Position numbers and translations under genes: made by a program
The notes under the pieces: generated by a model
Told to the model about the DNA's origin: nothing
The model's database searches: none
Seen by the model: the letters and a program-made list of their open reading frames with translations, nothing else
Origin: Pseudomonadota bacterium
GTDB lineage: Bacteria > Desulfobacterota > Syntrophorhabdia > Syntrophorhabdales > Syntrophorhabdaceae
Assembly (NCBI GenBank): GCA_026388275.1
Contig: JAPLKB010000010.1
Location: 1-64,000, forward strand
Reading direction: 5' to 3'
Length of the DNA: 64,000 nt
Shown here: one piece after another, positions 19,984 through 24,589 of the stretch
Layout: each line of letters opens with the position of its first letter
Position numbering within the stretch: position 1 is the first letter of the stretch

Positions 19984-22253
<2,270 letters not shown>

Positions 22254-22275
22254 ATATTTGATAAAACAATAAGTG

Positions 22276-22301
22276 AATCCCGCCTCCGGCGGGATTTTTT
22301 T
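22276..22301 (+). terminator. Rho-independent terminator after the PfkB kinase gene
   Basis: Perfect 9-bp stem AATCCCGCC / GGCGGGATT with a 3-nt loop and seven T. Confidence 0.93.
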
Positions 22302-22381
22302 GTTAAAAGTCAAGGCAGGCCAGACAACCCGACGCCGATACTTATCTTAATGGAAGATGTGGATTAAAGTATAAATATATA

Positions 22382-22410
22382 TTGACATTGCCTTTCAATA
22401 CTGTTTTAAT
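22382..22410 (+). promoter_or_regulatory. sigma70-type promoter of panBCD
   Basis: Perfect -35 TTGACA (22382-22387), 17-bp spacer, -10 TTTAAT (22405-22410). The expected start near 22417 is 5 nt before the pan-motif hairpin, giving a leader of about 100 nt. Confidence 0.8.
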
Positions 22411-22421
22411 ACTGTCACATA

Positions 22422-22452
22422 CCGCTTGGATCCAGACCCTGGACCGAGACGG
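22422..22452 (+). ncRNA. pan RNA motif-like hairpin
   Basis: Stem CCG-CTTGG, bulged A (22430), TCCAG, loop ACC, then CTGGA, CCGAG, bulged A (22449), CGG: three helical segments of 5, 5 and 3 bp with one bulged adenosine on each strand. The pan motif is a known hairpin with two conserved bulged adenosines found in leaders of pantothenate genes, including deltaproteobacterial ones. Its position ahead of panB fits. The ligand of this class is not established. Confidence 0.75.
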
Positions 22453-22471
22453 AAGGAAATGGAACAATTCT

Positions 22472-22505
22472 AAGCCTTCTGAACCGCGTTCAGAGGGCTT
22501 TTTTA
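22472..22505 (+). terminator. Leader terminator/attenuator before panB
   Basis: 13-bp stem AAGCCTTCTGAAC (22472-22484) / GTTCAGAGGGCTT (22488-22500), one G-U pair, 3-nt loop, then six T, ending just before the panB ribosome-binding site. The strand 22475-22481 can instead pair with 22450-22456 (CGGAAGG), which includes the 3' foot of the pan hairpin, so pan hairpin and terminator can form together but not with this antiterminator. Confidence 0.85.
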
Positions 22506-22518
22506 TTTAGGAGGTTGA

Positions 22519-23304
22519 ATGGACAAAGTGACTGTACCGGCAGCAAGAGAGAGAAAAGGCAAAGAGAAACTTGCTATGCTCACTGCCTATGATTATGTGT
22601 TTGCAAGCATAATGGATCAAGCAGGAATTGATATAATTCTTGTAGGAGATTCTGTTGGTTCAGTCATGCTCGGTTATCCCAATACAATACCGGTAACAAT
22701 TGAAGAGATGATCCATCACACAAAACCTGTTGTAAAGGCCACAAAAAATGCCCTTGTTGTTATAGACATGCCCTTTATGTCATACCAGGAAAGTACAGAG
22801 CAGGCAAGACGTAATGCCGGCAAAATGATAAAAGAAACCGGTGCCGAAGCAGTAAAGCTTGAAGGCGGCGTGGGAATGAAGGAAGTCATTAAGGCCATTG
22901 TTGATATAGATATCCCTGTCATGGGGCATATCGGGCTCACACCGCAGTCAGTGCATCGTATGGGCGGCTATAAGGTGCAGAAAGAAGAAGAGAAGTTGAT
23001 TGCCGATGCGTTAGCAGTGGAAGAGGCAGGCGCATTTTCAATAGTACTGGAATGTGTACCCAGAGACATCTCAAAAAAAATTACCGATATGCTGTCCATT
23101 CCGACAATAGGTATAGGTGCAGGTCCGGATTGCGACGGACAGGTACTTGTTATTCATGACCTTCTTGGATTGCTTGGCGATTTCAGACCAAAATTTGTTA
23201 AGAATTATCTGAACCTGCGTACAGAAGTTGAAAAAGGGATAAAAGACTATATTGAGGAGGTCAGAGGCGGCACATTTCCGGATGACGCCCACTCTTTCCA
23301 TTGA
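22519..23304 (+). CDS. panB: 3-methyl-2-oxobutanoate hydroxymethyltransferase
   Basis: 261 residues, full length. First committed step of pantothenate synthesis, making ketopantoate from ketoisovalerate and methylene-THF. Motifs: [64 protein letters not shown] and [27 protein letters not shown] lies directly after the leader terminator. No panE is nearby. Confidence 0.97.
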
Positions 23305-23373: not shown

Positions 23374-24228
23374 ATGAGGATTATAAAAACAGTAAAAGAG
23401 ATGCAGGAAGTTGCCGATGAACTTCGAAAGGATAAAAAAATCGGTTTTGTTCCTACCATGGGCTATCTCCATGAAGGCCATCTCTCTCTTGTAAGGAAAG
23501 CAAGGGAAATCAGCGATGTTGTTGTAGTCAGTATCTTTGTTAATCCTACCCAGTTCGGACCATCTGAAGACCTTGCAAAATATCCGAGAGATTTTGAACG
23601 GGACAGGGACCTCCTCGAAGGGGAAAAAACCGATATCATCTTTTTTCCTGACGCAAGCGAGATGTATCCGGAGAGGTATTCTACTTATATACAGGTCAGG
23701 GAACTGGAAGACCACCTTTGCGGAAAAACAAGAACAGGCCATTTTATCGGTGTAGCTACAGTTGTTGCAAAATTGTTTAATATCGTCAAACCCCACTTTG
23801 CAGTATTCGGACAAAAAGACTACCAGCAGTTGAAGGTTATTGAGAGGATGACAAGGGATCTCAATATGGATCTGGAAATTGTCCCCTTTCCCACTGTTAG
23901 AGAACCGGACGGGCTTGCTATGAGTTCAAGGAATACTTATCTGAGTCCTGTTGAACGAGAAAAGGCACTCCTCATATATGCATCAATAAAAAAAGTTGAA
24001 AGCCTTTTTAAAGACGGTGAGAGAGATGCATCCATTCTTATTAATGAAGCAAAACAAATTTTAGGCACAAAAGAAGGTATACAAATTGAATATGTAACCA
24101 TATCCGACGGTGAGACACTTATTGAAACCGAAAGGATAGGAAACAAAGCAGTCCTTGCTATTGCCTGCCGTGTAGGCAAGACAAGACTCATAGACAATAC
24201 TATTTTGACGGAGGCTTACCATGTTTAA
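23374..24228 (+). CDS. panC: Pantothenate synthetase
   Basis: 284 residues. Joins pantoate and beta-alanine with ATP. Carries [16 protein letters not shown] (HIGH-like motif), [46 protein letters not shown] and [12 protein letters not shown] (KMSKS-like). It lies 69 bp after panB with a weak ribosome-binding site and overlaps panD by 8 bp, so all three genes share the regulated leader. Confidence 0.97.
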
Positions 24229-24589
24229 GACTATGATGAAATCAAAAATCCATAGAGCAAGGGTCACTGAAAGCAACCTTGATTATGAAGGAAGTATTAC
24301 TATAGACGCAACGCTTATGGAAGCTGCCGAAATCATACCGTACGAACAGGTGCAGATCTACAATGTCACAAACGGTGAACGTTTTACTACATACGCAATA
24401 AAGGGTGAAAAAGACTCGGGCGTGATCTGCTTAAATGGTGCAGCAGCCCATAAGGCAAGGAAAGGCGATATTATCATCATAGCGACATATGCTATGTATG
24501 ATGATAAAGAACTCGCAGTTTTTAAACCGAAAAAAGTATATGCAGATGACCTGAACAGGATAAAAGACCAGTTAAGACTGGTAAATTAG
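24221..24589 (+). CDS. panD: Aspartate 1-decarboxylase proenzyme
   Basis: 122 residues. The self-cleavage site Gly24-Ser25 (DYEGSITID) is exactly placed with the ATG at 24221, supported by GGAGG at 24210-24214. Cleavage produces the pyruvoyl group used to make beta-alanine, the second PanC substrate. Also conserved: [20 protein letters not shown] and [18 protein letters not shown]. Whether a PanZ/PanM maturation factor is needed is unknown. Confidence 0.97.

Follow-up and report, generated by a model that had tools for sequence, protein, structure and literature searches.

The window analysed here is a stretch of 64,000 nucleotides from a bacterium of the Syntrophorhabdaceae (assembly GCA_026388275.1, contig JAPLKB010000010.1) and carries on its forward strand a panB-panC-panD operon. 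Named relatives of its panB put the window within Syntrophorhabdaceae or close to that family. By Pfam, the operon encodes ketopantoate hydroxymethyltransferase (panB, 22519-23304, with its ATG at 22519; PF02548, 380 bits), pantoate-beta-alanine ligase (panC, 23374-24228; PF02569, 362 bits) and aspartate decarboxylase (panD, 24221-24589; PF02261, 173 bits). The upstream neighbour of the panBCD leader is a pfkB-type gene that ends at 22253 and has its own terminator at 22275-22297. Elsewhere in the window, positions 617-918 match the Rfam cspA thermoregulator (78.7 bits against a threshold of 78), a match that apparently covers a cold-shock protein gene together with its terminator.

The leader ahead of panB (22382-22518) is compact and lies on the same strand as the operon. 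A -35 box TTGACA (22382-22387) and, after a 17-nt spacer, a -10 box TTTAAT (22405-22410) can be read from the sequence, and transcription likely starts at about 22416-22418. At 22422-22452 is a hairpin made of 3 bp, a bulged A on the 3' side (A22449), 5 bp, a bulged A on the 5' side (A22430) and the apex UCC(AG)/(CU)GGA. An intrinsic terminator hairpin follows at 22472-22500, with a 13-bp stem (22472-22484 paired with 22488-22500, including one G-U), the loop CGC and a T tract that runs to 22504. Next comes the panB ribosome-binding site, read as GGAGG at 22510-22514. The leader is about 90 nt long, counted from the transcription start to the terminator, and the terminator with its T tract (22472-22504) stands between promoter and panB, where an attenuation switch would have it. 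An earlier note on this DNA had described the promoter, the hairpin with one bulged A per strand and the 13-bp terminator ahead of the ribosome-binding site, and all of these are borne out. The note had also pointed to a 7-bp pairing between CGGAAGG (22450-22456) and CCTTCTG (22475-22481, within the terminator 5' arm); these two strands of a candidate antiterminator are indeed fully complementary with one G-U pair.

In the earlier note the leader was called a complete pan-motif switch. In a covariance-model search the Rfam pan model (RF01749) matches 22366-22456 at 36.9 bits, just over the gathering score of 36.2; it is the sole pan match in the genome and precedes the sole panB. The stem has the two bulged A of RF01749 (A22430 and A22449), the downstream panB, panC and panD provide the gene setting of that family, and CGGAAGG comprises the 3' foot of the hairpin together with the conserved unpaired 3' tail of the model. 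The pan match, the terminator and the antiterminator of the earlier reading stand; the leader has a single hairpin, however, instead of the tandem layout that is typical of, but not strictly defining for, pan RNA.

Most pan RNAs are tandem (Weinberg et al. 2010, PMC2864571). In the window, what the Rfam match takes as its first hairpin is 22366-22392, a stretch that coincides with the -35 region and in which most pairs are flagged as non-pairs; a true tandem first hairpin was ruled out on both counts. A structural descriptor found no second pan-type hairpin upstream in any of the 40 close relatives checked, all 40 of which have a TTGAC box 37-45 nt upstream of the pan hairpin. Among Bacillota, the same descriptor finds an upstream pan-type hairpin in 26 of 50, and among Chloroflexota in 7 of 13. 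Since the first Rfam hairpin lies on the promoter and the relatives have no second one, the pan RNA of this lineage is a single hairpin beginning a few bases from the predicted transcription start. A tandem is evidently not obligatory for pan RNA, as judged from these leaders. Weak Rfam matches of this stretch to the Phe leader (24.4 bits, threshold 55) and the His leader (22.3 bits, threshold 49) were dismissed as chance matches driven by the terminator.

We consider it quite probable that the panBCD leader is a transcription-attenuation OFF switch built on one pan hairpin at the 5' end. Under this scenario, in the ON state the outer three pairs of the hairpin would open, its 3' foot and tail (CGGAAGG) would pair with CCUUCUG in the terminator 5' arm, and with the terminator blocked by this antiterminator panBCD would be transcribed. 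In the OFF state, some factor would bind and stabilise the hairpin over its full length, A22449 and the outer pairs included; with the foot sequestered, the terminator would form and transcription would end before the panB ribosome-binding site. The predicted antiterminator shares bases with the terminator and with the outer pairs of the pan hairpin, and neither of them can form alongside it. Because the antiterminator overlaps the hairpin foot, an occupied hairpin would lead to the terminator and a free hairpin to the antiterminator and expression, a polarity that fits end-product feedback.

Folding of the leader is consistent with this scheme. The leader as a whole has a folding z of -5.1, and the pan hairpin and the terminator each have a z of about -5.5 relative to shuffled sequence. 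When the transcript is cut before the terminator 3' arm, the predicted fold contains the antiterminator and the outer pan pairs are open; in the fold of the full-length leader, the hairpin and the terminator are strongly favoured. A shuffled tail pairs equally well with the terminator arm of the window in 4.5% of cases (p ~0.045), and judged from the window sequence alone the 7-bp antiterminator is marginal and only suggestive. It is the comparative evidence that raises the antiterminator clearly above chance.

The linker between hairpin and terminator also holds a four-codon ORF (ATG GAA CAA TTC TAA at 22459), preceded by GGAAGG, which resembles a ribosome-binding site, and attenuation could in principle depend on translation of this leader peptide. 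However, the sister genome has ATG GAA TAA at this place and the linker ATG is missing in most relatives, making such a mechanism barely credible; the mini-ORF (ATGGAACAATTCTAA) was ruled out as a leader peptide because it is not kept in the sister genome.

Pan RNA is widespread around the window and beyond. RF01749 matches were found in 34 of 38 genomes of the same genus or family, where those retrieved lie directly upstream of panB, and in 98 of 395 genomes sampled from the phylum of the window. Matches were also present in 72 of 121 genomes sampled from the class of a Parageobacillus genome, 67 of 150 sampled from the phylum of a Bacillota genome and 13 of 151 Chloroflexota genomes. Upstream regions of the relatives share a common order of promoter, one hairpin, GGAAGG tail, short linker, terminator beginning with CCTTCTG and ribosome-binding site. 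With the structural descriptor we gathered 186 pan-hairpin loci, and an intrinsic terminator, sought within 220 nt, follows 166 of them; 140 distinct tail and arm combinations served as the leader set for the pairing tests. The constant part of the element is the bulged stem, which is near-invariant across phyla and recurs in at least three, and the apical loop differs between leaders both in sequence and in length (2-16 nt in addition to the fixed pairs of the descriptor).

This distribution bears on whether the leader senses anything. A constitutive partial terminator, with the hairpin merely setting basal expression or shielding the 5' end, would agree with the strongly favoured hairpin and terminator in the full-length fold, and no ligand or regulator of pan RNA is known. 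Such a passive element would nevertheless not be expected to keep a near-invariant bulged stem across phyla or to be restricted to pantothenate/CoA-related genes, and we give this explanation little probability.

The pairing of 22450-22456 with 22475-22481, on which the earlier note had built its switch, is kept in relatives and covaries across families and within two large groups. In the 140 distinct leaders, the tail pairs with the 5' arm of its own terminator at a mean of -9.8 kcal/mol, compared to -8.6 kcal/mol with the arms of other species (z -7.5); shuffled tails reach a mean of -5.9 kcal/mol. The preference for the own arm persists when leaders with the tail CGGAAGG are set aside (z -6.1), when each distinct tail is represented once (n=59, z -5.2) and when each family is represented once (n=31, z -3.9, p = 2e-4), these permutation tests capturing the tree only partly. 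It is found in the Desulfobacterota-side leaders (z -5.9) as well as in the Bacillota leaders (p = 0.002). In 102 of the 140, no other non-overlapping window of the leader pairs better with the arm than the tail does. Nascent folds, cut before the terminator 3' arm, contain 6.1 expected tail-arm pairs, as opposed to 4.9 for swapped arms (Wilcoxon p 1.3e-5).

Matched changes on the two strands, in several families and separate lineages, illustrate the covariation. Leaders of the Desulfuromonadales type (L042-L051) have the tail GGCAGT and the arm ACTGCC, two others (L139 and L141) CGGGG and CCCCTG, and another (L115) CGGACGG and CCGTCCG. In L008, with tail CAGAGGG and arm CCTTCTG, the G-U pair has turned into A-U. 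Further cases are tail CGGGGGGC with arm GCCTTCCG (L135) and tail GGCGAGAG with arm CTCTTGCC (L245). Counts over fixed alignment columns show less covariation because the pairing register shifts between lineages. In 20 leaders from close and more distant relatives, the pair cells are 99.3% paired and show no two-sided change. Over 92 leaders, 87.7% are paired with 7 two-sided cells, a number reached by 1 of 500 shuffles and a modest signal, as slid registers yield as many two-sided cells as the true register or more. The register-free duplex tests of own against swapped arms supersede these counts.

The antiterminator helix begins in the 3' foot of the pan hairpin itself in 136 of the 140 leaders, and it is this overlap that makes the arrangement a switch, the antiterminator competing with both the hairpin foot and the terminator 5' arm. 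A conserved antiterminator exclusive of terminator and sensing element is thus found, with Chloroflexota as the exception: in the own-versus-swapped duplex test, 11 Chloroflexota leaders show no preference for their own arm (z -0.1). Pan hairpins and terminators are present in the Chloroflexota leaders L071, L077, L206 and L238-L249, with tails that have no own-arm preference. Based on their sequences, the Chloroflexota pan leaders likely use another expression platform.

Sequence does not fix polarity, and some Chloroflexota leaders without the pairing must act otherwise. An ON switch or a mixed polarity, in which binding at the hairpin region favours readthrough, may therefore be considered. 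Yet with the foot taking part in the antiterminator in 136 of 140 leaders, a stabilised hairpin would weaken the antiterminator, and an ON response would be unusual for operons of biosynthesis, uptake and a kinase. We regard ON or mixed polarity as improbable and retain the OFF switch as the preferred reading.

The genes that pan RNA precedes in other genomes provide hints about its signal. Besides panB, panC and panD, the genes found behind pan hairpins include one for a Rossmann-type reductase-like protein (Pfam: Rossmann-type oxidoreductase families), which we take to be of the DUF2520 type. Six Clostridia-like genomes (L303-L308, in G779, G815, G746, G786, G711 and G829) have the pan RNA before a gene set whose last members are an ECF transporter S component and coaX, which encodes the type III pantothenate kinase (NCBIfam matches of the L283 proteins). 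These operons comprise BirA or BioY-like genes, the S component, which has a weak FolT-family match and is possibly a pantothenate transporter, and coaX; they constitute a second pan-controlled operon, absent from the 2010 description. In one genome (L309, 207-2203, read on the reverse strand), a pan RNA with its own terminator precedes a PanS-like gene of the bile acid:sodium symporter family and panC; the PanS-like match reaches 299 bits, under its cut-off of 400 bits.

Other gene orders were noted as well. Two Chloroflexota pan operons (L311 and L312) start with the gene of a family S58 (P1/DmpA) peptidase, after which come a DUF2520-type reductase, panD, panB and panC. Some S58 enzymes release beta-alanine, and it is conceivable that the peptidase is tied to precursor supply. 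In L310 (373-2365, read on the reverse strand), an aldehyde ferredoxin oxidoreductase-like gene, named by eye, lies between the pan RNA and panB.

As pan RNA stands ahead of the kinase gene coaX together with genes of uptake and synthesis, the likely signal narrows to CoA or a late intermediate, which is more likely than pantoate. Whether a protein senses this signal or the RNA binds the metabolite directly is close to even, with a slight lean towards a protein because the apical loop varies and only the bulged stem is constant. A protein, possibly dimeric, that senses CoA or pantothenate status and locks the two-bulge hairpin in the OFF state has somewhat less than an even chance; as it differs from the OFF switch above solely in who senses, with the same architecture, confidence in the two overlaps. 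A site for a dimeric protein was proposed from the simple stem and the tandem layout (Weinberg et al. 2010, PMC2864571), and a constant bulged stem with a variable loop fits a protein that binds in the groove. However, all 40 close relatives have single hairpins and a promoter that leaves no space for a second, suggesting a dimeric site is not obligatory, and the same bulged stem is shared by at least three phyla. Rather unlikely is that the single pan hairpin itself is a tiny sensor of CoA or a phosphopantetheine intermediate working through the antiterminator. A 2022 review lists CoA among the cofactors surprisingly without a known riboswitch (PMC9971707); if the hairpin does sense CoA directly, it would be the natural CoA-class riboswitch noted there as missing.

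Pan RNAs have been reported in RNA-seq surveys of Bacillus and Paenibacillus (PMC4634765, PMC4342826, PMC5670726). In the literature searched, we found no pan expression platform, pan ligand, panB attenuation or CoA/pantothenate riboswitch; supplements and subscription journals were outside the search, and an earlier mention of a pan platform there is conceivable. The motif itself is known, and we rate as new the single-hairpin pan RNA with a defined and phylogenetically supported platform that would act by transcription attenuation. For an RNA catalogued since 2010 without explanation, the conserved antiterminator supplies a concrete and testable on/off mechanism, and the one-hairpin leader suits in vitro transcription tests of candidate ligands.

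Compared to the pan motif as described (RF01749; PMC2864571), the window leader has the same bulged-A stem, the same setting of panB, panC and panD and the same conserved 3' tail GAAGG, but one hairpin where the motif is usually tandem. The main text of that description gives no expression platform, whereas we assign the 3' tail to an antiterminator that would compete with the terminator. Such a role accounts for the conserved unpaired 3' tail in the Rfam model.

Purine, SAM-I and TPP riboswitches in Bacillota are OFF switches that terminate transcription. The window leader resembles them in its layout: an aptamer-like element comes first, an antiterminator and a terminator that exclude each other come after it, and the 3' foot of the element overlaps the antiterminator. 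Unlike in those riboswitches, its putative sensor is a single bulged stem of 11-13 bp with a variable loop. Protein-controlled attenuators are exemplified by PyrR (pyr) and TRAP (trp) of Bacillus subtilis. As in the model proposed for pan, an occupied site frees the terminator in these systems and provides end-product feedback; PyrR and TRAP are the regulatory proteins of their attenuators, whereas a sensor protein for pan RNA is hypothetical.
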